From the NCBI RefSeq assembly GCF_008033235.1, contig NZ_CP042432.1, positions 620,001 to 684,000 of the forward strand: 64,000 nucleotides of DNA. The letters are read 5' to 3'. The notes under the pieces were generated by a model. The model was not told the DNA's origin. It saw nothing but the letters and a program-made list of their open reading frames with translations, and did not search any database. The translations under genes were made by a program, and so were the position numbers. Origin of the DNA: Anseongella ginsenosidimutans (lineage in GTDB: Bacteria > Bacteroidota > Bacteroidia > Sphingobacteriales > Sphingobacteriaceae). Within the stretch, counting starts at the first letter, position 1; the number at the start of each line of letters is the position of its first letter. Below are positions 9,864 to 51,600 of this stretch, piece by piece.

Positions 9864-12800
9864 TTATTTCTGTTTAAGCAGGTAAGATAGCAATTTATTA
9901 AAATCATCCTGAGAAAGCACTTCGCCAAAGTTCCCTGGCATCAGTGTAAATTCAGAAGCCTCCTGTTCGGCAATATCGGCCTTCGCTACCGAGAACTCCT
10001 TCCCGGTGACATCGGCAAAAACAATCGTTTCACCTTCTTCCCTTCTGAAAAGGCCGGTTAACGTCTTGCCGTCCCTGGTTTTTATGATATAATTCCTGAA
10101 CGACTCGGAAACATTCCGGTTAGGATCCAGGATCTTTTCGGCCAGGGCATTGGCGCCCCAGTTCCCGATGCCTGTGAGCTGAGGCCCAATCATTCCACCA
10201 TCCCCGTTTATCTGGTGGCAGGCGGAGCAATTCTGAACAAAAACTTCCCTTCCGGTTTTCACCATATCCTCATTCCTGGGAGTTTGGTTGAAGTTGGCCA
10301 TCCGTTCCCATAATAAGGCTTGCTTTTCTTCGCTCACCGGCGGAATATTTGCGGTAAGTGAATCGTATTCCTTTTGAAGCGCAGGGCTTAGCCCGGAGAG
10401 CTGTTGTTTTACCTGCGGGTCAAGCAGGGTGCGGGGAAATATTTCGCCCTTTTTCACTTTTTCGAAAACGAGTACGACGCCCCCGGGGGAGTTTACGAGA
10501 GATTTAACTATTTCAACCTGGAGCGCCGCGGGCGCATTATTGACAGCATTCAATATTTCCCTGGTAGTTCCGCCAGGAAACTCTCCCAGTACAATGGCCA
10601 TCTGTTTCCTCAATTCCAGGTCAGCGGAATCACTTTTAAGGATGGCCCCTGCCAGGCTGGCGTTTTCTTCCGGATCAAGCTGCATAAGCGATCTTGCGGC
10701 GCTCACTCTGACGCTTCTATCAGCTGTTTCCTGCTGCAGGGCCTTTTCCAACCGGTCTTCCAGGGAAGCCATCTTTGCTTTTCCCACAAATTCAACGGCG
10801 AAACGCTGTTGGGAAATGTCCTGGCTGGAGGCCTCCGGGCCGGAACCTGCTTCAGCGGCAGGAAAATACTTATTCAATATATTCCTCGTTAATTCTCCTC
10901 CCCATGCCATAAGCTGAGCGTGCGTATCCGTCCCCCGCTGCGACATGCCCCGCTGAATGGCTGTGAAAGACATGAAAGAAGTATTCAGATCTTTACCATA
11001 GGCCCGTTGTGACGAAACGGTTAGCTCAGCGAGCTTTTCCTCCGGGATAAACCTGGCCGCATGCTCCAGTAAGCGTGATAATTGTTCATTGGGAACCGTA
11101 TGCTCCTTCATGAAAGCAAATACGAAAGTTCCCGCCTGGGGAAGATTCACACCTGTCATCACGTCGGCGAGGGTTGAGGCCTGTAAATCATCCCATTGCC
11201 GGGCAATTACTTCCTTCGTCAGCGTTTCTTCTCTTAGAAGATTACGCAGGCACAAACGGGTAGTATATAAAAGATGCGTGTCATGATCAGGAATATGCTT
11301 CCTGAAAGCAAGTAATTGTTCCACCGAGGCTATTTGCGGGTAATTCGCCAGTACTTCCACCGCGGCCCGCTGCACATGAGGATCCCCGTCTTCCAGGGCA
11401 GCAATCACCAATCTGTAATACTCCGGAGCCGGTACGACCATTTCCGCAAGGATCCGCATGATGTGTATCCTGATCAGGGGGTCTTCATGAGCAGCGGCCT
11501 TTTGAACCGCCTGGCTTTCCAGGGCATCCAGGCGGTACAGCGCCCATAAGGCATGAACGTACTTTTGCGCATCCAACTCCTGTCCGGCGAGCATTTTTTT
11601 AAGCGGTTCAATAGCTTCCCTGCCTATCCGCTGAACCAGTTCGTTTGCTACCTTGAGCCGGACCTTTAAATTGCTATGCCCAAAACCTTCCAGCAACTCT
11701 TTGACGCCGGCCCTGGTCCAATCTTCTACTTCTTCGCTGTTGCCTTTATAGGTAATGCGCCAGATCCTTCCACGGATCCTGTCTCTGGCAGGGTGATCCA
11801 GGGGTACTTCATAATGCCCGATAATCCGGTTGTAAAAATCAGCAATATACAAGGCGCCGTCCGGACCCAGCTCCACATCTACGGGACGGAACCAGGGATC
11901 CTCGCTCATGACCAGGTCCTGTTCTGCCTTTGCGACCGGTGTGGAACCGTTAAATTCGAAAGAATATCGATGCACGCGGCAGGTAACCACATCCCCGATA
12001 AAGAGATTCTTCCGAAATTCCTCAGGAAAAGCCGTAGTAGAATAATAGGCCATGCCGGCAAGCGCGGTAGACTCTTCCCCGTGGGGTTTCGTGTCGGGCG
12101 CAAAGCCAATACCTTCTTCCCTCTTGCCAAAATGAGGGTAATCTCCGCCCCTGATCAATTGGTAAATAGGGGATGAATGACAGTCCACCGAATACAAGTA
12201 ACCAAGTTCATCAAAAGCCAGCCCGAAAGGGTTAACCCTCCCGTAAGTAGTTTGCTCCGCCCGGCTTCCGTCAGGACGGAACCTGAATGTATTCCCCGAT
12301 TGCATAGTAATAGAATCACCGTCCGAGCCCGCGACAGTAGAGTTATTGGTAAAACCATGATCCGCGTGTATCCAGCCGTCAAATCCCCAGGTAAAATTAT
12401 TTACCATTCCATGTGTATCCTTATGCTCGAAGGGACCAAGTACGACAGCAGACCTGTCCGCGTTGCCGTCGCCGTTGCTGTCCCTGAACCGGTAAACATT
12501 CGGGATACTATAAGCGATAGCCCCGTCCCCGTGAGGCAGGATTCCTATGGGAATATTCATGGTATCGCTGAAATGGGTGAACCTATCCGCCCGGCCGTCG
12601 CCATCCGTGTCTTCCAGGATCGTAATACGGTCTTTCCCCCGGCCTTCTGCGGGAAAGGGGTATTCAAAAGACTGCGTTACCCACATTCTTCCCTTCGCAT
12701 CAAAGGAAATATTCATCGGCTTTCCGATATCGGGTTCGGAAGCATATAATTCTATTTCAAATCCCGGCGGCAGCTTAAACCCAAGCCGCTCCTCCTCCGG

Positions 12801-12947
12801 AGTCCTTGGGTCCGTTGAGCGAACATGTTCGCTGAATTTCTCCCCGATGAACCGGCCCGCATCTTCTGTTTTCTCTTTATTAAGGCAGCCTGAAAGCAAA
12901 ATGACAAAAGACAAACAGCCTATTGTCTGAAAGGTTCTTGAATTCAT
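9864..12947 (-). CDS. PVC-type beta-propeller dehydrogenase-like lipoprotein with HEAT repeats and cytochrome c domain
   Basis: This 1027-residue envelope protein begins with a lipoprotein signal (lipobox LLSGC). Residues about 50-410 form an NHL/sorbosone-dehydrogenase-like propeller (PPGFEIELYASEPDIGKPMN, TILEDTDGDGRADR, WFRPVDVELGPDGALYIADFYNRIIGHYE). Residues about 420-850 are HEAT-like helical repeats. The C-terminus is a c-type cytochrome with CSACH near residue 907 and an axial-Met candidate in FTLMPGNFG. This is the membrane-bound dehydrogenase arrangement first noted in Planctomycetes and common in Bacteroidota. The family is presumed to oxidise sugars or similar alcohols and pass electrons to the attached haem; the substrate is not known. 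It heads a two-gene operon with the FG-GAP protein. Three relatives occur in this window (38806, 44636, 48679). Confidence 0.9.
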   Translation of the reverse strand: MNSRTFQTIGCLSFVILLSGCLNKEKTEDAGRFIGEKFSEHVRSTDPRTPEEERLGFKLPPGFEIELYASEPDIGKPMNISFDAKGRMWVTQSFEYPFPAEGRGKDRITILEDTDGDGRADRFTHFSDTMNIPIGILPHGDGAIAYSIPNVYRFRDSNGDGNADRSAVVLGPFEHKDTHGMVNNFTWGFDGWIHADHGFTNNSTVAGSDGDSITMQSGNTFRFRPDGSRAEQTTYGRVNPFGLAFDELGYLYSVDCHSSPIYQLIRGGDYPHFGKREEGIGFAPDTKPHGEESTALAGMAYYSTTAFPEEFRKNLFIGDVVTCRVHRYSFEFNGSTPVAKAEQDLVMSEDPWFRPVDVELGPDGALYIADFYNRIIGHYEVPLDHPARDRIRGRIWRITYKGNSEEVEDWTRAGVKELLEGFGHSNLKVRLKVANELVQRIGREAIEPLKKMLAGQELDAQKYVHALWALYRLDALESQAVQKAAAHEDPLIRIHIMRILAEMVVPAPEYYRLVIAALEDGDPHVQRAAVEVLANYPQIASVEQLLAFRKHIPDHDTHLLYTTRLCLRNLLREETLTKEVIARQWDDLQASTLADVMTGVNLPQAGTFVFAFMKEHTVPNEQLSRLLEHAARFIPEEKLAELTVSSQRAYGKDLNTSFMSFTAIQRGMSQRGTDTHAQLMAWGGELTRNILNKYFPAAEAGSGPEASSQDISQQRFAVEFVGKAKMASLEDRLEKALQQETADRSVRVSAARSLMQLDPEENASLAGAILKSDSADLELRKQMAIVLGEFPGGTTREILNAVNNAPAALQVEIVKSLVNSPGGVVLVFEKVKKGEIFPRTLLDPQVKQQLSGLSPALQKEYDSLTANIPPVSEEKQALLWERMANFNQTPRNEDMVKTGREVFVQNCSACHQINGDGGMIGPQLTGIGNWGANALAEKILDPNRNVSESFRNYIIKTRDGKTLTGLFRREEGETIVFADVTGKEFSVAKADIAEQEASEFTLMPGNFGEVLSQDDFNKLLSYLLKQK

Positions 12948-13062: not shown

Positions 13063-15225
13063 TTAATCCTCCGCCATATCAGCAGTTTGCAGTTGCCACA
13101 TACGATAATAGCTGCCTCTTTGCTGAAGAAGCTCCCGGTGAACACCTGTTTCTTTGATCTCACCGTTATCCAAAACAATGATCCTGTCCGCTCCGCAGAC
13201 CGTACTCAACCGGTGCGCGATCATGATAATTGTCTTTCCTTCTTTGCGAAGAGAAAATATGGCATCCCGGATATATTTTTCAGACGCAGTATCGAGGGAA
13301 GAAGTTGCTTCGTCCAGGATGAGTACATCAGGCTCCCTGTACACCGCCCTTGCAATCGCAAGAAGCTGGCATTGACCGCCGGAAAGGGTCGCGCCGTTTT
13401 CGCCGATTTCCGTATGCAAACCCTGCGGGAGCTTTTCTATAAACTCCATCATTCCCAGTCTGCCGCAGATTGAAAGTACTTTTTGCAGATCCGGTTCAAA
13501 TTCCCCAAGCGCGATGTTTTCTATCACCGTCCCCGAAAATAGATGGATCTGCTGAGGCACTACCCCTATCAGGCGCCTCAGGCTTTCCACATCAAAATAA
13601 TGGATATCCACATCGCCAATGGTAATATTTCCAGACTCAAGGGGATAAACGCGCTGCAGCAAAGACGACAGCGTACTCTTTCCAGAACCGCTTTCCCCAA
13701 CAAGAGCCGTTATCTTTGCCCTGGGAATACAAAGGTTCAGGCCGTTGAATAAGCTCGCCCGCGCGCCGTACCTGAATTTGATATTATTGAAGCAAATGGG
13801 ACCCGCCATTCCCCTGGTCAGTTCCATTTTCTGGCCTTTTTCTTCCTGGTCCAGATCCATGATCTCGAACAGTCTTCCGGCGGCGATCAATGCGTCCTGT
13901 ATGGTGCGGTTCATCCCGATCAGGCTGATAACCGGCCCCGTAAAGTACCCGAAAAGCGCATAGAAAGAAAGCAATTCTCCCGGTGTAATCCAGGTTTGCA
14001 ATACAAAACCCGCCCCTGTCCAAAGCAATACGATCGTAAACAGGGAAGAAACAAATCCCGAAGAATTACCTGCCCACAGGGAGTTCAGCGAGGAAACGTA
14101 AGCCGTACGCAGTAAGCGGATAAATCGGCCCTCCATTTTGGTATTCGCAAAGTCCTGCAGTCCGAAACGCCTGATCGTCCCGGCGGCACGAAGGGATTCT
14201 ACCAATTGGCTTTCCAGCTCCGCACTCCGCTCCATAAGCTGGCGCTGCGTTTTTCTATTCGCCCTGTTTGACGCATGATAGATTAAAGCATAAAGCGGCA
14301 CCGCGACAAGCATGACCAGCGCCAGCTTCCAGTAATAGGTAAACATCAGGCCAAAGGAGAACAGGAGAATAAAAATATTGACCGCGCAGGTCACCAGCGC
14401 CTCATTGATAAAGAGGCGGATCCGGAAAGCGTCGTTTATCCGGGAAATTATCTCACCGGAGCTGATAGTATCAAAAAATCGCTGCGGAAGCCTGAATAAA
14501 TGCCTGTAATAGCCCAGAACCAGCCTTGCATCTATTTGCTGCCCGCTTTTAAGCGTCATCACCGTCTTAATGTGGTTGATGAATACCTGTAAAAGCAGCA
14601 AGGTGATCATGATCACTCCCATCAGGTTCAGCAGATTCCTATTACCCGACGGCAGTACATGATCCACGATCTTCTGGACAAAAACAGAAGTGGAAAGCCC
14701 GAGCAGCGTATAAACCAATGCTCCGAACAGCACCTGCAACAGTACCGGCCGGTGCGGCCTTAATAAGTGCCAAAAGCGCCCTAGTACAGGAACCTTTTCA
14801 TTTCCGGCTTTAAATTTTTCCGCAGGCAGCAGCAGTACCAGCACTCCCGTCCACATTTCTTTGAACTTTTCCGCTGATATCTTGTGAATGCCACCGTCGG
14901 CAGGGTCCATAATCCTGAGATGCTGCGCGGACACCTTCACTACGACAACAAAATGATGCAAGGTTCCTTTCACGACTACGTGGGCAATAGCGGGAAGTGG
15001 AATTTTGTCCAGGCTTTCAAAGGGCCCTTTCACTCCTCTGGCAGAGAAACCCAGCCGTTCAGCCGCTTGAATTAATCCCAGCACATTCGTGCCCTTTGAG
15101 TCCGTAGATGCATACTGGCGGATACGTGCCAGGGGCAGGTTCAATTTATAACTGGCCGCAACGGAAGCAAGACAGGCAGCGGCGCAATCCGTAATATCGT
15201 GCTGCTTAACCTTTATTTTGCGCAT
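13063..15225 (-). CDS. Peptidase C39-containing ABC transporter (double-glycine peptide exporter)
   Basis: This membrane protein cleaves double-glycine leaders and exports the released peptide. Domains in order are: a C39 peptidase (about 1-130), with Gln and Cys in KQHDITDCAAACLA, His in HHFVVVVK and Asp in MDPADGG; a six-helix membrane domain (about 155-440); and an ABC ATPase with Walker A GESGSGKS, signature LSGGQ, Walker B VLILDEATSS and the switch His in IAHRLS. The usual DCGAAC is DCAAAC here, a conservative Gly-to-Ala change; all catalytic residues are present. I start at the ATG at 15225 (RKIKVKQHDITDC), six codons inside a longer possible start at 15243. Either start overlaps the end of the HlyD gene, implying coupled translation. 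Its likely cargo is encoded by the two GG-leader peptides upstream in the same operon. Confidence 0.95.
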   Translation of the reverse strand: MRKIKVKQHDITDCAAACLASVAASYKLNLPLARIRQYASTDSKGTNVLGLIQAAERLGFSARGVKGPFESLDKIPLPAIAHVVVKGTLHHFVVVVKVSAQHLRIMDPADGGIHKISAEKFKEMWTGVLVLLLPAEKFKAGNEKVPVLGRFWHLLRPHRPVLLQVLFGALVYTLLGLSTSVFVQKIVDHVLPSGNRNLLNLMGVIMITLLLLQVFINHIKTVMTLKSGQQIDARLVLGYYRHLFRLPQRFFDTISSGEIISRINDAFRIRLFINEALVTCAVNIFILLFSFGLMFTYYWKLALVMLVAVPLYALIYHASNRANRKTQRQLMERSAELESQLVESLRAAGTIRRFGLQDFANTKMEGRFIRLLRTAYVSSLNSLWAGNSSGFVSSLFTIVLLWTGAGFVLQTWITPGELLSFYALFGYFTGPVISLIGMNRTIQDALIAAGRLFEIMDLDQEEKGQKMELTRGMAGPICFNNIKFRYGARASLFNGLNLCIPRAKITALVGESGSGKSTLSSLLQRVYPLESGNITIGDVDIHYFDVESLRRLIGVVPQQIHLFSGTVIENIALGEFEPDLQKVLSICGRLGMMEFIEKLPQGLHTEIGENGATLSGGQCQLLAIARAVYREPDVLILDEATSSLDTASEKYIRDAIFSLRKEGKTIIMIAHRLSTVCGADRIIVLDNGEIKETGVHRELLQQRGSYYRMWQLQTADMAED

Positions 15226-16384
15226 ATGGATCCAACCAGTCATCTACGTTATCGTGTAATAATTGAAAAAGAGTTCTTTCTGTCACAAGGAATCTTGCCT
15301 GAAGCGTCATTCCTCTTTTCAGTTTGCCCGGGTAGCCGTTCGACAGCATCAATGCAGTTTTTTTCAATTTGCATTTTACTTCGAAAAAGGGACGGCGATC
15401 CTGTGTCAGCAAAACATCTTCAGAAATGTCTGACACAGTTCCTGTAATCATTCCCCATTGCTGATAGTTAAATGCGTCAACCTGTAACCGGACCGGCATT
15501 CCCTCCTCTAAAAGGCCGATATCCGCGGGAGGGATCAATATTCTGGCAAGCAGCCCCGAATCAGGAGAAAGCTGCGCCACCTGTTCCCCCTGGCTGAAGA
15601 AGCTACCCTCCTGAACACCTTGTAACTGCTGCACAATACCGCCCGCCGGCGCCCTTATCGTATAATACTCCTTTTCTTTATTGAGTTTATTTTCCCTTAA
15701 AACTAATTCCCTCATTTCGCTGTTCAGTTCGTTCAACGCAGCCTGCCACCGGCCGCCCTGCTCTTCATAAACCAGCTGCAGCCCGCTACGGGCTGCCTCC
15801 AAAGCATAGCGGTATTTGTCAAATTCAGCCGCGGCGAGGACCTGGCTTTTAAACAGGTATTCGTTACGTTTGAAAACAGCGGCCGCATTTTGCAACTGAT
15901 TGGCTGCGCGGCGCACCTCCTGCTTTAAAAGTCCGAATTGTTGTATGTACAGTGGGGAAGCGAGCGATACCGGGAGTTCAAGGCTCTTTTCACGGCAAAT
16001 AGTTAGTAATTGCCGGAGATCACCCTCCTGCCGGATAAGCTTTCTTTTCCTTTCCCGCAGGTAGGAAAACTCCTCTTCCAGAATAGCTGATTCCATCGTA
16101 AAAAGCACCTGCCCCTTTTTAACGGGTTGGTTTTCCTTTGCGAATACAACCGCCACTCTACCTGAAACAGGAGTCTTTATCCAGCTTCTTTCATCGGCTG
16201 CGGTAAGCATTCCGCTCCCTTTTACAATGACGTCCGCTTTTACAACAAACATGGCGGCAAAAACAAGGGCGATGAACAAGAGTACGGCGAGGTAAACGAA
16301 CTGTGACCGGGCACCCATTCGGCCGAAATAATGCTCATAGGTAAGCTCAACCAGCTCAACAGGTAAGATAGTTTTGTTTTTCAT
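15206..16384 (-). CDS. HlyD-family secretion adaptor
   Basis: This 392-residue periplasmic adaptor has one N-terminal membrane helix (FVYLAVLLFIALVFAAMFVV, about residues 29-48). Next come a biotinyl-lipoyl half motif (VKTPVSGRVAVVFAKENQPVKKGQVL-like region, about 85-115), a long coiled coil (about 115-250) and the second lipoyl half (IRAPAGGIVQQLQGV). The C-terminal part is a beta-barrel. It would link the C39 ABC exporter to an outer-membrane channel. No TolC homologue lies in the window, so one from elsewhere must serve. It overlaps the exporter gene by about 20 bases and follows the small ORFs on the same strand. Confidence 0.92.
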   Translation of the reverse strand: MKNKTILPVELVELTYEHYFGRMGARSQFVYLAVLLFIALVFAAMFVVKADVIVKGSGMLTAADERSWIKTPVSGRVAVVFAKENQPVKKGQVLFTMESAILEEEFSYLRERKRKLIRQEGDLRQLLTICREKSLELPVSLASPLYIQQFGLLKQEVRRAANQLQNAAAVFKRNEYLFKSQVLAAAEFDKYRYALEAARSGLQLVYEEQGGRWQAALNELNSEMRELVLRENKLNKEKEYYTIRAPAGGIVQQLQGVQEGSFFSQGEQVAQLSPDSGLLARILIPPADIGLLEEGMPVRLQVDAFNYQQWGMITGTVSDISEDVLLTQDRRPFFEVKCKLKKTALMLSNGYPGKLKRGMTLQARFLVTERTLFQLLHDNVDDWLDPYAQNKG

Positions 16385-16481
16385 AAGTAGATATTTGAAA
16401 AAGAGAGGGCAGGAAGTTCCCTGCCCGCCCTCCCAGGTTTAGTGATTAGCTAAATTTTCCGATCCGCTTGTCCGCGTCCCC

Positions 16482-16703
16482 TTAGGGAAAATGGTACATG
16501 AAACTTCCTACTAAACGACCCAGATGATAGATCGCCAACAAGATCAACGGAATGAAACATGCCCCGAACAGAAGCAGATTTTCAGATTTCTTCTTGCTAA
16601 TCATCTTGTTATTATATTTAGAGAATTCCATACACATTACCTTCTGGCTTCTTCCCGATACCCTGCCATGAGGCCCAAATGAAAGGTTCCCAAGGCGGGG
16701 CAT
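16482..16703 (-). CDS. Small single-pass membrane protein in the peptide-export operon
   Basis: I do not recognise this 73-residue protein. Its C-terminal half is a strong membrane helix (LLLFGACFIPLILLAIYHLGRLVGSFM), preceded by a basic stretch (KMISKKKSE), so the N-terminus should be cytoplasmic. The start at 16703 lies three bases after the stop of the 34-codon ORF, which suggests coupling. In-frame ATGs at 16637 and 16631 would give 51 or 49 residues, and the first 22 residues are not obviously conserved, so the start is uncertain. Position between GG-leader peptides and the exporter genes suggests an immunity or accessory protein; that is inference only. Confidence 0.55.
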   Translation of the reverse strand: MPRLGNLSFGPHGRVSGRSQKVMCMEFSKYNNKMISKKKSENLLLFGACFIPLILLAIYHLGRLVGSFMYHFP

Positions 16704-16706
16704 GCA

Positions 16707-16811
16707 TCAATACCAGATAAAATCCCAGTTCTTAAAAATGACATAGAACGTCAGAAAAGAGATCAGTATAATTACTAAAAAACGCCATTCATTTTTTTCA
16801 ATGATCTTCAT
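16707..16811 (-). CDS. 34-residue hydrophobic peptide
   Basis: This short ORF starts at the ATG at 16811 and stops with TGA at 16707-16709. It encodes a basic/acidic head (MKIIEKNEWR), one hydrophobic helix (FLVIILISFLTFYVIF) and the tail KNWDFIWY. It sits in line with the GG-leader peptide genes (17 bases after the previous stop) and the next membrane protein. The tail NWD resembles DWD in the mature part of the 17040-17225 peptide, at the same place after a hydrophobic run. It lacks a double-glycine leader. It could be a small immunity or orphan membrane peptide. Expression is unproven. Confidence 0.5.
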   Translation of the reverse strand: MKIIEKNEWRFLVIILISFLTFYVIFKNWDFIWY

Positions 16812-16827
16812 TTTGGGTTTATCATGA

Positions 16828-17016
16828 TTAACAATTACATGACCAGCTTGTACTGGCAGCGTCGGTCAATGCTGAAGGTACACCGTAAACAGCGGCAATT
16901 CCTATAAACCTGAATACCCGTCCGACATCATACGCGAACCCCCTTCCACCGGCTATATCCATCGCTTCCGCTTCTTCGATAAGTTCCAATCCTTCACAGT
17001 TGATTAAACTTTCCAT
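16828..17016 (-). CDS. Double-glycine-leader peptide (bacteriocin-like precursor) 1
   Basis: This 62-residue precursor has an acidic leader (MESLINCEGLELIEEAEAMD) ending in IAGG at residue 24, followed by a 38-residue mature part. That part is mostly hydrophobic, with Gly/Ala-rich patches (GIAAVYGVPSAL) and the cysteine-bearing end SWSCNC. The leader pattern E-x-M-x-I-x-G-G is what C39 peptidases recognise, and a C39 exporter is encoded in the same operon. The two closely spaced terminal cysteines could form a disulphide or be modified; no modifying enzyme is nearby. Function as bacteriocin or signalling peptide is inferred from leader and context. Confidence 0.75.
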   Translation of the reverse strand: MESLINCEGLELIEEAEAMDIAGGRGFAYDVGRVFRFIGIAAVYGVPSALTDAASTSWSCNC

Positions 17017-17039
17017 AAGGCCTGTCTTATTAAATTCAT

Positions 17040-17225
17040 TTAACCTTCACAACGTCCCGACAGTCCTGCTTTGAAATTATCCCAATCAGAAATAATTTCT
17101 GTAATTGCTGAAATGCACACTCCAGCAGCGACTGCTGTCCAAAATACCAGTCCTCCATTTACTGCCCGCAGCTCATCCTCGCTGAGGCTGACCAGTACGG
17201 TGTTCTCAATACTTGTGTTTTTCAT
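17040..17225 (-). CDS. Double-glycine-leader peptide (class II bacteriocin-like precursor) 2
   Basis: This 61-residue precursor has a textbook class II leader, LSEDELRAVNGG, ending at residue 25. The 36-residue mature peptide is LVFWTAVAAGVC... with a hydrophobic helix, then SDWDNFKAGLSGRCEG. Two cysteines, near the start and end of the mature part, could form one disulphide. The leader fits the LSxxELxxIxGG consensus used by C39 exporters. The gene is first in the minus-strand operon, starting 199 bases from the divergent XRE gene. Peptides 1 and 2 may be a two-component (class IIb) pair or independent products. Confidence 0.8.
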   Translation of the reverse strand: MKNTSIENTVLVSLSEDELRAVNGGLVFWTAVAAGVCISAITEIISDWDNFKAGLSGRCEG

Positions 17226-17349: not shown

Positions 17350-17401
17350 AAACCCTGAGGTTTTAAAATATAGCTTTGAGCTATATCTGAAAGTTCCGAT
17401 A
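17350..17401. promoter_or_regulatory. Three adjacent inverted repeats in the divergent promoter of the peptide-export locus
   Basis: Three palindromes lie end to end. AAACC-CTGA-GGTTT is at 17350-17363. ATATAGCT-TTG-AGCTATAT is at 17368-17386 (perfect eight-base arms). TATCTGAA-AG-TTCCGATA is at 17384-17401 (one mismatch). They lie between the peptide operon (starts 17225, minus) and the XRE gene (17425, plus). The middle one contains a full -7 box. XRE regulators bind such short palindromes as dimers, so autoregulation and control of the operon are likely. Confidence 0.6.
17371..17378 (+). promoter_or_regulatory. -7 promoter element of the XRE regulator gene
   Basis: TAGCTTTG matches TAnnTTTG and lies inside the central palindrome, 46 bases before the ATG at 17425. 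A repressor bound to the palindrome would block this promoter. No convincing -33 TTG is present at the usual distance. Confidence 0.5.
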
Positions 17402-17424: not shown

Positions 17425-17652
17425 ATGAAAAACGAAGATTATAACTCAAGCAGGGCCATAATGCGCCGTATTCGTCTAACGAGAGAAGAGAGGCGTTACT
17501 CGCAGGAATTCATGGCAGGCAAAATGGGCATTTCCCAGGAAGCGTACAGCAGGCTGGAACTGAATGAAACAACACCTTCTGTCGACCGGCTGTTACTGAT
17601 GGCGAGGATCCTTGATATCCCGGCCGAAGAATTGCTGTTTACCAGCTCCTGA
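17425..17652 (+). CDS. XRE-family helix-turn-helix regulator
   Basis: This 75-residue protein is a single HTH_3/Cro-type domain: IRRIRLTREERRYSQEFMA-like helix 1, the recognition helix KMGISQEAYSRLE, and the typical ETTPSVDRLLLMARILDI. There is no sensor domain. It is divergent from the GG-peptide operon across a gap full of inverted repeats and is the natural candidate to control it. Eighty-two bases further on begins an AraC regulator on the same strand, possibly co-transcribed. Confidence 0.88.
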   Translation: MKNEDYNSSRAIMRRIRLTREERRYSQEFMAGKMGISQEAYSRLELNETTPSVDRLLLMARILDIPAEELLFTSS

Positions 17653-25483: not shown

Positions 25484-28400
25484 TTAAAAATCGAGTCCAA
25501 CGCTGAAAGTGTAGATGGGGGTCGAAGGATAACGGCCGTAATCGAGTCCGGTTGGCTGCGTATCCGCAGCCACATCCCTGCCCACAAAAGACCCTATTTC
25601 AGGATCATACCCCTTGTACCGGGTAAAAGTGGCCAGGTTCTGTACGCCCACTGAAAGCCGGGCGGCCTGTATTACAGGCTGCCGCCCTAAAAAAGACTCA
25701 GGCAAATTATAGCCTAGCTGAATATTCTTGATCCTTATATACGATCCGTCTTCCACGAACTTATCGGTAAACCTGGCTCCGTTGCCATTAACATCCGAAC
25801 CCGACACCCTGGGTACCGAAGTTTCCGGGTTCAGCAGGCGGGGAGCCCCGTTGTCGCCTGTGCCAATCCTGGCGTAAGCAAAGGTTTCTTCCAGGAGATT
25901 CCTGCCAAGATTGATATTGTTCGGATTGGTGTTTACAAAACGCAGGTAATTGAAAACATCATTGCCATAGGTTCCGGTAAGGAGGATGCTCAGGTCGAAG
26001 CCTTTATAACTGAATGAATTGCTGAACCCAAATGAGAAGTCCGGCCAGGGGTTTCCAATAAAGGTTTGATCCCGCTCATCAATTACGCCGTCATCGTTCA
26101 GATCCTTGTACCGGATATCCCCTACCCATACCGAGTTCGGGTTTGCAGCCAGCTCCGCACCAGTATTATCGGTAGGCAGGGCGCTTGCTTCGATCTCCTC
26201 CAATGATTGAAACAAGCCGTCATAGACATAGCCATAGAACAGCCAGGGCGCCTTCCCTATATCCGAACGCTGTGTCCAGTTATTAAGGTACCAGGCGGAA
26301 CGCTGCAGGAAAGCTGTTTCCGAATACAGTTTAGTTAGTTTGGGCCTGAATCCAGATATATTGAAATTACTGTTCCACTGAAAACCCTTCCGGTCTATAT
26401 TAATGGTGTTCAGGGTAAACCCGTATCCCCTGTTTTCCAGGGAGCCCACATTGACGATAGGAGGAGCAATAGAACCCTGTCCCGCGGTGCCCATATAATC
26501 GGGAAGAGGATTAGGCATCAACAGGTTATCCGTCTTCTTGATATAAAAATCTCCTTCCAGCTGCACACGGTTTTCCAGGATACTGAGGTTAAATCCAATA
26601 TTATAGGTTTGGGTTTCCTCCCATTTCAACTCCTGGTTCCCGTAGCGCCCGGCAAGAAAGCCGGCTCCCCAGGGAGTAGCCACGGAATTCAGAGGAGAAA
26701 ACACTCCCTCGCTTCCCTGGTTGCCGGTGAGCCCGGTTTCAAGACGTAATTTCAATTCCTCGATATACGTGACATCCTGCATAAATGATTCCTGAGAAAT
26801 CCTCCAGGCAGCCGACACAGAAGGGAAAACGCCCCATCGGTTTTCCGGCCCGAAATTCGATGAACCGTCAGCCCGGATGGCTGCCTGGAGAATATACCTG
26901 CCATCATAACTGTAATTCAGCCGGCCCAGATAAGATTCCATGGCCCAATCGCCCCGGCCACCGCCATTTATGGCTCCGTCCGGGCTGCCGATATTCAGGT
27001 CGGGGATCTCATTGGTAACAAAGCCCGTTCTTGATCCGGATAAGTTTTCCCAGCTGGATTCCTGGGATTCATGACTTGCCATTATACCAATTTCATGTTT
27101 CCCGATACTTGTGTTGTACTGCGCCAGCTGGTTCAGGTTCCAGTAAATATTGGTTCCTCTGTTCACTGCCAGGCTTGCTACCTCATTTGGCCGGTCACCG
27201 AGCTGGTAGGTAGGTATGAAATAGCTGGAATTGCTATACCGCACTTCACCGTTCAGGGAAGTACGGAAGGTTAAGCCTTTGAGAATACTAATATCCGCGC
27301 TGATGCCTCCCATTGCGCCTCTCCGGTTAAGATCATTCCGGATGAAGCTGGCAACTGCAACCGGATTGAGCGGAGTAAACTGTTCGCTGCTGCCGTTCGC
27401 GGCATCGGGCCCTCCCCAGCTCCCGTCAGGATTTCTGACCGGCACATTGGGCGCAATATTAATCGCATTGTTGATGACATTTTCCTGGGAGGTCCCAAGT
27501 TGATCATCCGTTTGATTCAGGGAAAGGTTAGCGCTTAATTTCAGCCAGTCGCGGGTTTGATTGTCCACGTTCAGCCTCAGCGAATACCGTTTAAAAGAGG
27601 AGCCGATAGCTACGCCTTCCTGGTCGAAATATTCTCCTGAAAGGTAAAAGGTAGTGCGTTCGCTTCCTCCGCTCAGGCTGAGCTGGTGTTTTTGCAGGGG
27701 AGATGTTTTAAAAAGAGCGTCCTGCCAGTTTGTGCCTTCGCCGAGTACAGAAGGATCCAGAAAAGCCCCGGGGGAATCCCCTCCTGCTATGGCATGGTAT
27801 TCATTCACCATTTGCGCGTATTGCCGCAGGCTCATTACCGACAGCATTTCCGGCTCATCCTGCACACTATACAGGAAATTATAATTGATCTTCATCTGTC
27901 CGGCCTCTCCTCTTTTGGTGGTGATCAGCACGACGCCATTCGTGCCCCGCGAGCCATAAATGGCGGTTGCGGAAGGCCCCTGAAGGACCTCCATGGACGC
28001 GATATCGGTTGGGTTCAGCCCGGCCAGGGGTTCATGGAACTGGTGGCGCCGTAAGCAACCGTCCCCGGAGCGATCTGCACGCCATCTATTACATACAGGG
28101 GTTCATTACTGCCGTTAATAGAATTGATGCCCCTTATGTTGACCGATATACCGCCTCCGGGCTGTCCGCTGTTCTGGGTCACATAAACTCCGGCAGCACG
28201 GCCCTGCAAGGCCTGGCCAATGGTCGTGTTTAAGGTTTTGCCGATATCTTCAGCGGTAACAGAAACCTGGGCTCCGCTGATATCGGCCCTTTTCATCTGC
28301 CCGTAACCCACTACCACCACTTCATCCAGGTTCGCGACATCTTCAGTAAGGGAAACATCGATAGTGCGCTGGCTGCCGACTATCACTTCCTGTGACTCAT

Positions 28401-44635: not shown

Positions 44636-47635
44636 TTAGTTTATGACTTTAATGATCCCGCGCATCATGGTCCCGTGGCCGGGGAACGTGCAGAGGAATG
44701 GATAATCTCCCGGTTTGGAGGGCGCCTTAAATTCCAGCGTCTGCTCCTCGTTATTATTCACGAGGCGGGTAGCATGAAGCACCTTGCTGCTTTGGGGCAC
44801 AAATTGTTTTTCAAAGCCTTTGCCTCCCATGTCTATCGCAAGCTGCGCCACCTCATCGGCGGCGCCGGGGCTTACAACAACCAGGTTATGCGGCATGAAA
44901 TCCGGGTTTTTCAGCGTCAGCTTTACCGGCTGCCCGGCTTTTACGATCACTTCTTTTGTATCAAAAAGCATTCTTTCCGGGATGGTGGCAATGCTAAGCA
45001 CCGCCTGGCTTTCGCCTGAGAGATCCACCGTCTTTGCGCCGACAGCGGTATCCCCTGCGGCATGCGCATGTGCCGCGCCTTCTGCAGGAGATGTTCGTTC
45101 AGTGGTATCCGCGCCGGCTGCCAGGCCGGCCTGGGAATGGGCGGCCATTTCCTTTTCCTGGTATTTCCGGAACCATTCCACGCGTTGGGCAGCGATCCGG
45201 GCATGTTCTACCGGGGAGCCCAGCAGCTTTCCGAGCAATTCCGGGTTCGTTTTATTTTGCCGCTGATGCAGCCAAAGCACTTCCAGCATGGCGTGCGCGC
45301 CTGCCTCATCCGAAGCGTCAAACTGTTTCACCCATTCCTTCGCTTTACTGATCACCTCTTCCCGGTCGCGGCCGCTTAGTTCAATCTGCACCTGGTGGCG
45401 CACTTCATTCACCGGGTGCTGCAGCAGGTCAAGCAGCTTTTCCACCGGTTCTCCCGCAATAGCCACCGGTTCGGAAAGCGGCCGGCCCGTGGCAGTAATA
45501 CGATAAATGCGCCCGTGTTCGTGATCCCGCTTGGGGTCCCGGATATTATGCTGCATATGTCCAATGAGCGGGTTTTGCCAGTCGCTGATATACAGCGCCC
45601 CGTCTGCGCCGATCACTCCCGAAGTCGGGCGGAAATTAGGATCATCCGAATAGATCAGATCGCCGATTTCCTTGCCCTGTACCACCCCGTTATCGTATGT
45701 CAGCTGGTAGCGTTTGATCCCCAGGAAGCCGATCACGTTATATATCAAAAAGTTATTCTCATACTCCGGCGGGAAATGCGTGCTGGAAAGCACCTGGTTC
45801 CCCGGTACCGGACGCACGGTCTGCTGAAACAGCTGCCGCGTCTTAAAATCATCAGGCCCTGCCGATCCGTGGGTTTCCGGATCCAGGTATACCTGGGAAG
45901 CCCTTCCGGAAGTCCCGTCGGTGATGAACTGGTAACCCCATTTATCAAAACTGATACCATGCGCGTTAGGACTGTTTTCCACCACGAAGTCAAACTGGTA
46001 GGTGCGCGGGTTAAAGCGGTAAAGACCCGGCTTACGGGCCTCGTAATTCTTGCGCCAGGGCGTTTCCACGTTGCTGAGCATAAATACCCCCCGCTGATAG
46101 TAGATAAACCCGTCCGGTCCGTAAAATAAGTTATTCGCCGAGTGATGCGTGTCCGCGGCATCGATTCCGCCCAGCAGCACAATCCGCTCATCGGCCTTGT
46201 CATCGCCATCCGTATCTTTAAGGAACAGGATATTCGGCGCGGAAACCACGATCACGCCATTATTCCAGAATTCAAAGCCGGTGGGATTATGCACCCTGGC
46301 AAAAGTGGTGGACTTGTCGGCAACCCCGTCCCGGTCGGAATCCGCCAGGATCACCAGGCGGTCTTTCATTTCTTTCAGCGGCTCCCGCTTGGGATAGGTT
46401 TCCCAGGAGGCCACCCAGATACGCCCTTTTGTATCTCTTTTCACCGTTACCGGGTTCGCGATTTCCGGGAACTGCTCCTCGGAAGCGAAAAGGTTGATTT
46501 CCAGTCCCGGGGCCAAATGCATTTTATCAATGGCCGCTTCCCCGCTGAGGTAAACGACTTCGCCCTTAAAGTTGGAAACAACCTTCACCGGCTCGGGAAC
46601 ATTGCTGTCATCTATCGTTGTATCCACCGCCCAGGACTCCCAGACGCCCCAGAAAGGCTCTTCTTCATCACTGACCACCTGCACCCCCTTTTCTCCGCGG
46701 GCCACCGCCCATATACGTTTGTCACGGTTTGCGGTCATTGAATCCAGCATGACCAGCTCCCGCTGCAGGGTTTCAAAATTGCCGTGCAATTCGCTTCTTC
46801 CGCCCCAGACATCATTCCCGTCGGTTGCCCGGTAACGATTGAACCAGCGCCCGTTCTTGTTCAGCACCGCCTTTCTCAGTTTATCGAACTGCGCCTGGCG
46901 AATGCCGGGTTCGGCGCCCGCAAGCTCCACGGTTATTAACCTGGCCACCTCTTGGTTGCCTTTTTCGTTCAAATGTATTCCGTTAAGGGTCAGGGGAGCT
47001 TTGGATTCTTCATATAATCTTTTAGTGCCTTCAAAAAGGTTCACAAAAACCACCTGTTTCTCGGCGGCGGCCGCGGCCATCGCCTCTGTATACGCTTCCA
47101 GGCGGCGGTTGTTCTCTTCGCCCGAAGGAAGATCGGGGCTTTCGAGGTTCTCGTGGGCAATGGGCGAAAAAAGAACGATCCGCGGAACATTTACACCATC
47201 GTATTTTTTCAGACGGGTGGAATCTATCCATTCCCTTACCTGCTGCCCGAATTTCTCCGGTGTATCGTCAAAAGATTCGTTATAACCAAAGAACGCGAAT
47301 ATGACATTCGCCTTTACCCGGGACAAATGCTCATCCGCGTCCCCGTAGTTCTCATGCGCCCGCGGCCGGTGAGCCGCCTGATCGCCCGTGAACCCGAGGT
47401 TACGGAATACCAGCTCCTTTTCGGGGTAGGAAGCTTGCAAATAGGTTTCCAGGAAACCATGGTATTGCATACGTTCGGCAAGCGCATTGCCAATGAGCGC
47501 CACCCGGTCATGTTCCGCAAAATCAAATTTTCCCGAAGGTGCGCAGCCGGCCAGGGAAACGGCCAGCAATAAAAAAAACCGCGACAACAGGCGCCGGATG
47601 GAAATAGGTTGGTTAGTTTGCATTATGTGCGTCAT
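44636..47635 (-). CDS. Giant lipoprotein: SGNH-like + beta-propeller dehydrogenase-like + HEAT + cupredoxin
   Basis: This 999-residue envelope protein has a lipobox (SLAGC). Residues about 38-240 are an SGNH-hydrolase-like domain (VALIGNALAERMQYHG, FFGYNESF, NGIHLNEKGNQ). Residues about 350-730 are a propeller of the PVC dehydrogenase type (APGLEINLFASEEQFPEIANPVTVKRDTKGRIWVASWETYPKR, NFRPTSGVIGADGALYISDWQNPLIGHMQ), followed by HEAT-like helices. The C-terminus (about 880-999) is a blue-copper domain with ligands His in MPHNLVV, Cys/His in LCTFPGHG and Met in GTMMRG. No CxxCH is present, so the copper domain replaces the cytochrome of its relatives. The block I Ser of the SGNH domain is Ala (GNAL), so esterase activity is unlikely. 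It shares architecture with 48679. Confidence 0.9.
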   Translation of the reverse strand: MTHIMQTNQPISIRRLLSRFFLLLAVSLAGCAPSGKFDFAEHDRVALIGNALAERMQYHGFLETYLQASYPEKELVFRNLGFTGDQAAHRPRAHENYGDADEHLSRVKANVIFAFFGYNESFDDTPEKFGQQVREWIDSTRLKKYDGVNVPRIVLFSPIAHENLESPDLPSGEENNRRLEAYTEAMAAAAAEKQVVFVNLFEGTKRLYEESKAPLTLNGIHLNEKGNQEVARLITVELAGAEPGIRQAQFDKLRKAVLNKNGRWFNRYRATDGNDVWGGRSELHGNFETLQRELVMLDSMTANRDKRIWAVARGEKGVQVVSDEEEPFWGVWESWAVDTTIDDSNVPEPVKVVSNFKGEVVYLSGEAAIDKMHLAPGLEINLFASEEQFPEIANPVTVKRDTKGRIWVASWETYPKREPLKEMKDRLVILADSDRDGVADKSTTFARVHNPTGFEFWNNGVIVVSAPNILFLKDTDGDDKADERIVLLGGIDAADTHHSANNLFYGPDGFIYYQRGVFMLSNVETPWRKNYEARKPGLYRFNPRTYQFDFVVENSPNAHGISFDKWGYQFITDGTSGRASQVYLDPETHGSAGPDDFKTRQLFQQTVRPVPGNQVLSSTHFPPEYENNFLIYNVIGFLGIKRYQLTYDNGVVQGKEIGDLIYSDDPNFRPTSGVIGADGALYISDWQNPLIGHMQHNIRDPKRDHEHGRIYRITATGRPLSEPVAIAGEPVEKLLDLLQHPVNEVRHQVQIELSGRDREEVISKAKEWVKQFDASDEAGAHAMLEVLWLHQRQNKTNPELLGKLLGSPVEHARIAAQRVEWFRKYQEKEMAAHSQAGLAAGADTTERTSPAEGAAHAHAAGDTAVGAKTVDLSGESQAVLSIATIPERMLFDTKEVIVKAGQPVKLTLKNPDFMPHNLVVVSPGAADEVAQLAIDMGGKGFEKQFVPQSSKVLHATRLVNNNEEQTLEFKAPSKPGDYPFLCTFPGHGTMMRGIIKVIN

Positions 47636-47737: not shown

Positions 47738-48679
47738 CTATCCTGCTCTGTCCTGCTCCTCCTGCCACGTTCTGAGCCAGTAGAGGCACCTTCCGAACCA
47801 TTCTTCAAAGTCCGGAGCAGTAAGAAAGCCGTGTTCGCCCCTTCCGTATAAATGGATTGCCGCCGGAACATGATGATTTCGCAAAGCCCGGTAAAAATAC
47901 AGGCTATTCTCCGGGGGAACCACCACGTCCTCCGCAGAATGCACCAGGAAAGCTGGCGGAGTTTTTTCCGTGACGCCGAGTTCGGCTGAATAAAATCTGA
48001 TCTGTTCCCCGGATGGAGAAGGGCCCAGCAGGTTATCCCGTGAGCCCTTGTGGCCGATGCTGTCCGTAAAACTGATCACCGGGTTGATCAGCAGCATAAA
48101 ATCGGGCCGCAGGCTAACGCTGCCGGCATTTTCAATCAGGGGCTTGTCAAAATGGGTTCCCGCCGTCGCAGCAAGATGCCCGCCTGCCGAAAAGCCCATG
48201 ATCCCGATCTTCGCCGGATCAATGCCCCATTCAGCCGCATGCTCACGCACTACCCTGATAGCTTGCTGCGCGTCCCGGAGCGGCCCGCTGGCTTTGTCCT
48301 CCATGATCCGGTCATGGGGCAGCCGGTATTTTAAAACAACAGCGGCAATCCCGGCCTTATTAAATTCCCTGGCCACGAAACGTCCTTCCCGTTCAATGAG
48401 CAGCGCATGATAGCCGCCGCCGGGGCAGATGATCACAGCCATGCGGCCGGCGCCAGGCCCCTCCTGCGGCAAAGAAGCCCCCTTTTCAGGCAGGAACAGC
48501 GTAAGCGTGGGCCGGGACACCTGCGTAAGGACGGTATCCACCAGTTCATTGGGGGCGCTTATCTCCCTGTCCGGGCCCGGTTTCGCTCCGGGAATATCCC
48601 CTTCATAAAGAGGGATGGTTTGCTGGCTTTTTCCAGGCGTTGCGGTGATGAGAAAAAGAATTGCCAGGAACAGCCGCAT
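47738..48679 (-). CDS. Secreted alpha/beta-hydrolase, esterase (BD-FAE/acetyl-xylan-esterase-like)
   Basis: This 313-residue protein has a signal peptide (LFLAILFLITATPGKSQ). The alpha/beta-hydrolase fold shows the oxyanion-type CPGGGYHAL, nucleophile Ser in GFSAGGHLAA, acid Asp in HSAEDVVVP and catalytic His in GRGEHGFLT. Family members remove acetyl or feruloyl groups from plant glycans and glycosides. The start ATG overlaps the stop of the upstream giant cupredoxin protein (TAATG). The stop lies within the direct-repeat copy at 47739. It would strip ester decorations before the oxidative enzymes act. Confidence 0.88.
   Translation of the reverse strand: MRLFLAILFLITATPGKSQQTIPLYEGDIPGAKPGPDREISAPNELVDTVLTQVSRPTLTLFLPEKGASLPQEGPGAGRMAVIICPGGGYHALLIEREGRFVAREFNKAGIAAVVLKYRLPHDRIMEDKASGPLRDAQQAIRVVREHAAEWGIDPAKIGIMGFSAGGHLAATAGTHFDKPLIENAGSVSLRPDFMLLINPVISFTDSIGHKGSRDNLLGPSPSGEQIRFYSAELGVTEKTPPAFLVHSAEDVVVPPENSLYFYRALRNHHVPAAIHLYGRGEHGFLTAPDFEEWFGRCLYWLRTWQEEQDRAG
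47739..47756. repeat. Direct-repeat motif TRTCCTG-N3-TRTCCTGC, copy 3
   Basis: TATCCTGCTCTGTCCTGC, identical to the copy at 41554. It overlaps the last codons of the esterase gene and lies 104 bases before the start of the cupredoxin protein gene (47635). It is preceded by an AT-rich stretch (47717-47738). Confidence 0.55.
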
Positions 48680-51600
48680 TATTTCACCACTTTAATAATT
48701 CCCTTCATCATTCTCCAATGACCGGGGAAGGAACAAATGAACGGGTAGTCACCGGGTTGGGCAGGAGCCGTAAAATTCAGCTGGAAGACCTGGCTTGCGC
48801 CTACCAGGGGAGTGGAAAACAACACCTCCGGCAGGTCCGGTACGAAATGCTTTTCATAACCGTCTTCCCCGCTGGCCATATTATCAGCAGCCATACCTAC
48901 TTTTTCCCAGGAGCCGGGTTTCACGATTACCACGTTATGCGGCATCTGGTCGCGGTTGTCAAAAACCAGGGAAACGGTTTTTCCGGCAGGAACCACGAGC
49001 GTATCTTTATCAAAAAGCATTTTGCCCGGCAATGCCGCAAGCTGGATAACCACCTCGCCCATTTCCTGCGCAGGAGCCGCAGGAGCTGCCGGCGCCGGCT
49101 CTTCCGTGGCCGTGCTGAACAGATCCGCGTTATTCTTCCTGAAATTGTCAAAAGCGGCTACTCCTGCCAGGGCCTTGAAATCTTCTTCAGACAGCGGAGC
49201 CACGCCATATTTAGCATAAGCAGGGTCATCCATGATAAATCCGGGCACCTGCAATTCTTTTTCGGATGAAAGCGGCCGGAACAGGTAGTTTGCCTTTTCC
49301 GGGCTGTCCGCCAGGAAATCCTTGTCGTTTTTGAACATTTCCATCCAAACCGGCTTCAGGTGTTTAAACGATTCGATAAGGGCGTAACCCGTATAATCGT
49401 CCACCGGCAGTTCAGTAGCGGCGAGCAGCGCCTTTACGGACGCTTCGCTTTCAAAATGGCTCAGGGCAGTAATGGCTTCCAGCCGGACCCTTGGAGAAGG
49501 GTCGCGCGAAAGCGCAATAAGTTTTTCTTCGGCATCGCTTATTCCAGGCGCCCAATAGTACAATACATGGGTGGCAGCAGCCCTCACATGGGCATCTTTG
49601 GCTTCCAGCAGCTTTCCCAGCAGGGCTTCCTCAGGCCGGTTGAACTGCTGGTAAACCCATAGGCCTTCCAGCTGATAATGCTCATATTCGGGATCGCCGG
49701 CATCCAGGCCGGCAAGCCATTTTTCAAGGGCGGGAAATACCTCTTCTTCCGGTAAAGCTCCCAGGCGTACTCTTGCCCGGTATCTTTCCCGGTCTTCGTA
49801 AGTCTTCAGCCGGTCCAGGAGTTCCGAGGTACCCAGCTGCGTCAGATCCGTTACTTCCAGTGCAGGTTTGCCCTTATAGGAAATTCTCCATATCCTGCCC
49901 CGGGTATGGTCCCTTAGCGGATCGCGGAAACCTTGTTCTCCGTGCTGGATAATGGGGTCGTACCAATCAACTACGTACAGCGCGCCGTCCGGGCCGAATT
50001 TAAGGTCCACCGGCCTGAAATCAGGATCTTTGGACTGCAGGAGCGGCTCCGTCTCATCGGCCATGATCCCGCTGCCTTCTTCCCGGGGGACATGCTGACG
50101 CACGCCCTGGAACCCGATAAAGGTATTAAACAGTACATTTCCCTGCACGTTTTCGGGGAAAGCGCGGCTGGAAATGATCTCCACCCCGCAGGTCTTGGGT
50201 TTTACTTTAGCGGTCAGAAAATCCTTCATGCCCATGTGTTTCTTAGGATAATCGATGGCCACCGTAAGCGGAGGAGCGAAATAATTCATTCCCGTAGACA
50301 CATCCGCAATAATATGAGTACCATCTCGGGTAAACACATTTCCCCAGGGATTCGCGTAAGGATAGGAAATATAGGGCTCCAGCTTCATTGTCCGTGGCTC
50401 GTACCGCCAGGTAGTACCGTATGCTCCTCTTTGCGGCCCGTAAGGGGTTTCTACCTGGGAATGCAGGAAGGTGCCCATGTGCATATACAGCGCGCCGTCG
50501 GGGCCCCAGGTATAGGCGCTCAGGGTATGATGGGAGTCCTCTGTGCCGAAGCCGCTGAGCAGCGTCTTCCTGGAATCGGCGCGGTCATCGCCGTCCGTAT
50601 CTTTAAGAAAAACGAAATCGGGAGCCTGGGTCACGTAAACGCCTCCCTGCCCCAGCTCGAAGCCCAGCGGCAGGTACAAGCTGTCGGCAAAAACCGTATG
50701 CTTGTCCGCTTTACCGTCACGGTCGGTATCTTCCAGGATCACCAGCTGGTCATCCGGCGGGCTTCCCGGGTAGTAATGCGGGTAGGAAGGCATCGTGGCT
50801 ACCCACATGCGGCCCTTTGGATCAAAGGTGATGGCCACCGGGTTCGCCACGGGAAAATCCAGCTCCGAAGCGAAAAGTTCGATCTCATAGCCCTCGGGCA
50901 GCACAAAGAGGGATTTTGCCTTTTCGAGTTCTTCGCGGGCAGCCTCCGGGCTCGCCCCGCTGTTTTGGGCCAGCGGCCGCGGTTCGTATTGCCTGCTGAA
51001 AGCGATGATCTCGCGGATCTTCTCCATGTCGGGTGTCGCATCTGAAGCGCTGCCCGCCCAGATAACGCTGTCGAGCCGGGCCACGATCTTATCTATTTTC
51101 AAAGCTTCTTCCGGGAGCGTCTGCCCCCCTGCCCATTCTCTTCTGCGGCCATAAATATATTCTCCGTTCTGGGCCTTGAAGCGGTAAAAGTAGTGCTGGT
51201 TCTTTTTCGCAACGGCCTGCCGGAGCAGCAGGGAGTGTTTGTCACCGTCCCAGGAAGCAGCGGGCAGGCCCAGCGAGCGGGCCATGACCTCGCTCACCTG
51301 AAGGTACCCTTTGTCATTGAGATGGATCCCGTTGGTGGTCAGCGAGTCGGCGCCGGCCGCTAATTTCGCGGTAGGCCCGTACAGGTCAATAAAAGGAATA
51401 TCCAGCTTTCCGGCCACGTCCTCCATCCCTTCCGCATATAGCTCCAGGTTTTTATTATGCGCAGAGCCATCCGGTAAAAAACCGCCCAGCTCCTCATGCG
51501 CGATGGGAGAAACGAGGATCACTTGAGGGGCGGCCTTGCCATTGTATTGCTGCTGCTGTAAATGGGAAAGAAAACTTTCAAGGTCGCGCTTGAAATTGTC

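Follow-up and report, generated by a model that had tools for sequence, protein, structure and literature searches.

The cassette and its two precursors

The window analyzed here is a stretch of 64,000 nucleotides from Anseongella ginsenosidimutans (contig NZ_CP042432.1, positions 620,001 to 684,000), part of a complete 4.32-Mb chromosome; by sequence, its closest relatives are Sphingobacteriaceae of the Anseongella type. It contains a 4.2-kb cassette, running from 17225 to 13063 on the minus strand, in which genes for two peptide precursors (P1, P2), two tiny single-transmembrane (TM) proteins (P3, P4), an HlyD adaptor and an ATP-binding cassette (ABC) exporter lie head to tail. All six open reading frames (ORFs) were present where an earlier note on this DNA had placed them. 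That note assigned no function to the tiny membrane ORFs and missed the likeness of their tails to mature peptides; these ORFs, the part of the locus with most interest, probably encode immunity proteins.

17040..17225, minus strand: P1 precursor (alpha-like), 25-residue double-glycine (GG) leader and 36-residue core
16828..17016, minus strand: P2 precursor (beta-like), 24-residue GG leader and 38-residue core
16707..16811, minus strand: P3, candidate immunity protein, 34 residues, leaderless, single TM segment
16482..16637, minus strand: P4, candidate cross-immunity protein, 40-51 residues, single TM segment
15206..16384, minus strand: HlyD-family periplasmic adaptor (PF13437, E 2.8e-19)
13063..15243, minus strand: C39-peptidase ABC exporter, predicted to cleave leaders (PF03412, E 6.7e-34; ABC_membrane and ABC_tran domains)

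The P1 precursor consists of the leader MKNTSIENTVLVSLSEDELRAVNGG, ending in NGG, and the core LVFWTAVAAGVCISAITEIISDWDNFKAGLSGRCEG, which contains two cysteines and has a predicted mass of 3801.3 Da (3799.3 Da with a disulfide). P2 follows after a gap of 23 nucleotides, with the leader MESLINCEGLELIEEAEAMDIAGG, ending in AGG, and the core RGFAYDVGRVFRFIGIAAVYGVPSALTDAASTSWSCNC, ending in CNC, of predicted mass 4029.5 Da (4027.5 Da with a disulfide). The family motifs are (I/S)DW(D/E)xFKAG for P1 and FAYDVGxxxG for P2. By inspection, the helix motifs of the window cores are only variants of the small-xxx-small type (AVAAG in P1; AAVYG and GVPSA in P2); YDVGxxxG is present in P2 relatives. Two cysteines per peptide, as described earlier, are indeed found in the window, but several P1 relatives have none, and a cysteine pair or disulfide is ruled out as a defining feature of the family.

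Among the flanking genes tested, which encode DUF7133/cytochrome c, FG-GAP, AraC, SMP-30 and NUDIX proteins, no modification enzyme was seen. The exporter scores 515.9 bits against the TIGR01193 model, whose cut-off is 523.85. The earlier proposal that the peptides are unmodified and class II-like agrees with the GG leaders, the C39 exporter, the lack of a modification enzyme and the two-peptide relatives conserved across other families of Bacteroidota. The further claim that they match no class holds only in part. With the model for class IIb peptides of the lactobin A/cerein 7B family (TIGR03949), P1 reaches 17.3 bits, below the curated cut-off of 21.5, and five of nine aligned P1 relatives match this model, the best with an E value of 6e-6. 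A comparison of both cores with solved structures gave no convincing match and no solved bacteriocin.

Conservation and related cassettes

A metagenome-assembled genome (MAG) of the same genus (locus L076, genome G001) contains P1, P2, P3, HlyD and exporter genes in identical order, together with the divergent XRE-type regulator gene and the downstream DUF7133 gene. P4 is missing from this otherwise intact cassette. Comparison of the parts identifies the P1 core as the best conserved portion of the locus: 29 of its 36 residues are identical in L076 (dN, nonsynonymous divergence, 0.105; dS, synonymous divergence, 2.34), against 11 of 25 in the P1 leader, 22 of 38 in the P2 core, 8 of 24 in the P2 leader, 53% in HlyD and 63% in the exporter. 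The P1 core is under purifying selection, and the cassette is a conserved unit, more than a chance arrangement.

The exporter shares 58-66% identity with those of many Bacteroidota but is rare: at an E value of 1e-150 it was found in 11 of the 395 genomes from the class. True P1/P2 pairs were identified in another genus of Sphingobacteriaceae (L013/L189), in a Flavobacteriaceae MAG (L091), in a Cyclobacteriaceae MAG (L064) and in genome G333 (L120/L187); the two genes stand side by side in L076, L013, L091, L064 and L120. These distant two-peptide cassettes in other families of Bacteroidota suggest a class IIb-like system of unmodified two-peptide bacteriocins.

Most loci of Pedobacter, Mucilaginibacter and Dyadobacter encode instead a Gly/Ser-rich GG peptide unrelated to P1 and P2. 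This family is large and often tandem, begins MKLQELNxxEMxEINGG, is served by nearly the same exporter and is unlike a pore-forming bacteriocin. Its members lie upstream of the exporter in L040, L042-L045, L048, L051, L054, L056-L058, L061, L063, L065, L069, L073-L075, L077, L082-L086, L088 and L100. In a Mucilaginibacter MAG (L070:4941-6679), a transporter of the same kind adjoins a tandem array of five GG peptides, all rich in the beta-repeat-like motif RNNTAxGNxGxVxQNSGDI, and in L190 (genome G386) eleven called ORFs resembling GG precursors surround a single exporter. On plasmid pMP118 of Ligilactobacillus salivarius UCC118, a GG precursor (L252:75-248) has the core motif FGYDIGCTIANT, similar to FAYDIGCTLRYIG in the P2 core of L187, a hint that P2 may have relatives in Gram-positive bacteria.

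Tails of some tiny TM proteins resemble mature peptides

Leaderless single-TM proteins are widespread in such loci. Their C-terminal tail often resembles a mature-peptide core, which in most cases is encoded in the same locus. The likeness was first noticed by eye while the cassettes were being read, and the loci from which the idea arose were therefore treated as a discovery set. In that set, 9 of 43 unselected tails lay at the permutation floor of 0.003, with the cores of other loci as reference, and 64 control TM tails gave nearly uniform p values. For validation, new regions around exporters were taken from separate genome searches, duplicates were removed, which left 46 loci, and the code was kept unchanged. 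Seven of 35 tails then had p<0.01 against cores of other loci, where 0.35 were expected (binomial P 5e-8), and none of 20 controls did. In a stricter test against shuffled versions of their own cores, 4 of 35 tails still had p<0.01 (P 4e-4). The likeness of tails and cores within a locus is thus shown statistically.

The clearest new case is L196, in which the tail RLGKSFGEFLYYVTH lies next to the core EAGKATGEFIYYVTH (aligned pair LGKSFGEFLYYVTH / AGKATGEFIYYVTH). In L105, GYLDGRADK is encoded next to a core with GYADGRRDK. L091 is another clear pair (NWNDFISGISGGI / DWDGFKAGISGGI), its tiny ORF ending in LKNWNDFISGISGGI and its P1 in ITDWDGFKAGISGGI, and in L103 FGKSMGEALYYFTN stands next to a core ending in AGKATGEFIYHITR. 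Profiles provided an unbiased check. When a profile built from P1 precursors only was run against whole genomes, its best match in G197 was a leaderless tiny TM protein ending in IIFSDWENFKAGLTGNPPVF (E 6.9e-4), and the mimic-family profile A6, two of whose members are clear mimics, matched the P1 profile with an E value of 3e-6.

P3 and P4 as candidate immunity proteins

P3 (MKIIEKNEWRFLVIILISFLTFYVIFKNWDFIWY, tail IFKNWDFIWY) and P4 (ending in MISKKKSENLLLFGACFIPLILLAIYHLGRLVGSFMYHFP, tail LAIYHLGRLVGSFMYHFP) each have one hydrophobic segment and, at 34 and 40-51 residues, are of the size of CbnZ-like single-TM immunity proteins, about 55 residues or less; P4 may start at 16637 or at 16604. 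Because the P3 of the window is not significant by itself, the case for it rests on its family. In L187, the P3 homologue resembles the P1 of that locus (p 0.010 and 0.003), and a P3 family of three members, clear mimics excluded, aligns with the P1 family in hhalign (P 0.005, probability 7%) in the register FYVIFKNWDFI / ITEIISDWDNF. P3 thus appears to mimic P1 at the family level only.

The P4 tail was compared with 310 cores. Its best match was the core of a Pontibacter bacteriocin in L103 (score 53, LAIYHLGRLVGSFMYH / LAIYEAGKATGEFIYH, 9 of 16 residues identical); this score was reached in none of 1500 shuffles (Gumbel fit, P 2e-5). The second and third matches, the cores of L198 and L196, are of the same class and come from genomes of the window's own family. 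Since its top match is with foreign bacteriocin-like cores, P4 is best read as a putative cross-immunity protein against a bacteriocin of relatives. Mimicry of the window's P2 by P4 was rejected as not significant (p 0.18/0.56), the L103/L196/L198 class fitting far better.

An immunity role is also indicated by arrays of tiny TM ORFs without precursors. Five orphan mimic ORFs are clustered in L186 (G197; L186:11604-12977), one of them with FINDAQNHPEDVISGFNS against the core MINDAQNNPDDFWAGYNA of another genome, and several more occur in L194 (L194:7816-15290), where no precursor was called nearby and whose genome, G409, had no related exporter in the search. The charge bias within the mimic group fits an orientation with the N-terminus inside and the C-terminus outside (Fisher P 0.003). 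In addition, Rce1/CPBP membrane proteases, a family accepted as class IIb immunity proteins (PMC8538875), adjoin many sister two-peptide cassettes in Bacteroidota; there is none in the window locus. The protease genes are the following.

L120:1991-2605, L064:6308-6775, L123:753-1220 and L129:695-1195: Rce1/CPBP genes
L116:10995-11450, L131:2610-3092, L178:1963-2442 and L059:4958-5860: Rce1/CPBP genes

Neither two-peptide bacteriocins nor tiny TM proteins that confer immunity are new. CbnZ, a protein of 42 residues with one TM domain, N-terminus inside and C-terminus outside, gives 250-fold protection against carnobacteriocin XY, and the way in which immunity proteins with one TM segment counter two-peptide bacteriocins has been called a mystery (PMC6957408). 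The probable CbnZ ORF was recognised on a Carnobacterium plasmid from its length, its place next to CbnX and residue L41; the CbnX and Abp118 query sequences agreed with annotated records. In a few small tests, the probable CbnZ tail FIGRSIGSLF resembled HLGRLVGSFM of P4 (P 0.005); its similarity to CbnX was weak (P 0.012). Both likenesses are no more than suggestive. An extension of tail mimicry to Gram-positive bacteria was set aside, the CbnZ/CbnX similarity being weak and AbpIM showing nothing obvious.

Favoured interpretation

The reading that we favour, with somewhat better than even confidence, is that the locus exports an unmodified, class IIb-like two-peptide bacteriocin and that P3 and P4 are immunity proteins with mimic tails. 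We infer the following course, from cleavage and export through antimicrobial action and the need for both peptides to topology, immunity and the mechanism of mimicry. As the domains suggest, the C39 domain would cut both precursors behind the GG, and the two cores would then leave the cell through the ABC exporter, HlyD and an outer-membrane partner. They may act jointly on the envelopes of related Bacteroidota. P3 and P4 would each span the membrane once and, by charge, present the C-terminal tail to the periplasm. There the anchored and presumably harmless copy of a mature peptide's conserved end may either assemble with the incoming peptide and block it, or occupy the receptor or partner of that peptide. 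P3 would confer immunity to the P1/P2 pair of its own locus, and P4 mainly to another bacteriocin class of related genera.

Several observations weigh against this interpretation. The P1 core is conserved better than the exporter, which is atypical of an arms race. The hypothesis was itself suggested by the discovery set, some of the seven pairs in the validation set are weak, and the relatedness of L196, L198 and L103 lowers the effective number of events. Mimicry was not detectable in most tiny TM ORFs. P3 of the window does not significantly match the P1 core of its own locus (p 0.12/0.26), nor does P4 its own P2, and AbpIM, a small Gram-positive immunity protein, shows no obvious mimicry.

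The divergent regulator and alternative explanations

Two further features lie upstream of P1.

17425..17652, plus strand: XRE-type regulator (HTH_3), divergent from the cassette, as in the same-genus MAG
17368..17386, no strand assigned: perfect 19-bp palindrome ATATAGCT-TTG-AGCTATAT between the XRE gene and P1, a candidate operator

GG peptides can act as pheromones. P1 and P2 might be exported signals sensed by a receptor and the XRE protein, the tiny TM proteins being part of sensing or export; the divergent XRE gene conserved in the genus, the candidate operator and the very conserved P1 core all agree with such a role. We nevertheless regard signalling as rather unlikely. XRE proteins are cytoplasmic, neither an importer nor a histidine kinase is encoded beside the locus, and several sister cassettes carry a different small helix-turn-helix gene. 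The Rce1/Abi proteases and the orphan mimic arrays fit immunity better, and specific support for signalling was not obtained. The palindrome had no match with three or fewer mismatches in L076.

Tails and cores could also resemble each other through a membrane partner or exporter that they share, the tiny TM proteins serving as export helpers or as a third exported component. Their genes lie directly upstream of HlyD and the exporter, and helix-packing motifs of the GxxxG type are common to both. This explanation appears unlikely, however: L194 contains mimic ORFs with no precursor called there and no related exporter found in its genome, the tiny TM proteins have no GG leader, and the L076 cassette is intact but for P4. 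That the likeness is incidental, made of small-xxx-small helix motifs or recent duplication debris with no role, is less likely still: small membrane proteins often contain GxxxG and aromatic motifs and only a minority of tails score, but own-locus specificity was replicated in fresh loci with flat controls, GY.DGR.DK and NW(N/D).F..GISGGI exceed GxxxG, and the best whole-genome match of the P1 profile in G197 is a mimic.

Comparison with known systems

With class IIb systems such as carnobacteriocin XY, lactococcin G and plantaricin EF/JK, the window locus shares an adjacent pair of GG precursors, a C39 ABC exporter with an accessory protein, the lack of modification enzymes, membrane immunity candidates and, below threshold, the lactobin A/cerein 7B leader model. 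It differs in its Gram-negative Bacteroidota host, in its use of an HlyD adaptor, in cores that are not strongly cationic (net charges -2 and +1) and in matching no solved bacteriocin. P3 and P4 resemble CbnZ in having about 40 residues, one TM helix, a cationic N-terminus and a short C-terminal tail. CbnZ, however, is Gram-positive and its immunity and topology were measured; those of P3 and P4 are predicted. The Abi/Rce1 (CPBP) proteases of plantaricin and sakacin 23K loci have counterparts in the Rce1-like genes beside many sister cassettes; P3 and P4 are not proteases.

Bacteroidetocins are also Bacteroidota peptides with a GG leader and a C39-type exporter, and at least two cysteines occur in the window peptides as well. 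They have leaders of 15-16 residues, are single peptides and are accompanied by a 5-TM protein and, in most, a thiol oxidoreductase; the producers tested show no self-immunity (PMC6671954). Membership of this group was ruled out by the window leaders of 25 and 24 residues and by the neighbours, DUF7133/cytochrome c and XRE/AraC genes.

Genomic surroundings

The chromosome encodes a second C39-type exporter (796850-798988; 32% identity), and no GG precursor was seen near it within a 5-kb stretch. PADLOC and PHROGs searches of the small ORFs gave no defence or phage family, and no relatives of the exporter were found in viral contigs. Three large DUF7133 proteins occur in the window, at 44636-47635, 48679-51960 and 9864-12947. 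Two of these carry fusions of GDSL lipase and plastocyanin-like domains, and the third, a cytochrome c fusion, flanks the bacteriocin locus. At 25484-27994, an ORF of 836 residues has no Pfam match at E 1e-5.

Implications

Bulk prediction has already covered class II precursors of Bacteroidota (PMC12648078). The open-licence literature searched yielded no description of immunity tails that copy a bacteriocin, which is weak evidence of novelty. Chances seem about even that two-peptide bacteriocins of Bacteroidota are generally neutralised by leaderless, anchored copies of their own C-terminal motif and that genomic arrays of such copies target the bacteriocins of other strains. If the tails do copy the weapon in anchored form, the mechanism would be directly testable, and swapping tails should swap immunity. 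The target of an orphan immunity gene would then become predictable from its sequence, which would provide an annotation rule for tiny membrane ORFs and a prediction of strain resistance across Bacteroidota.

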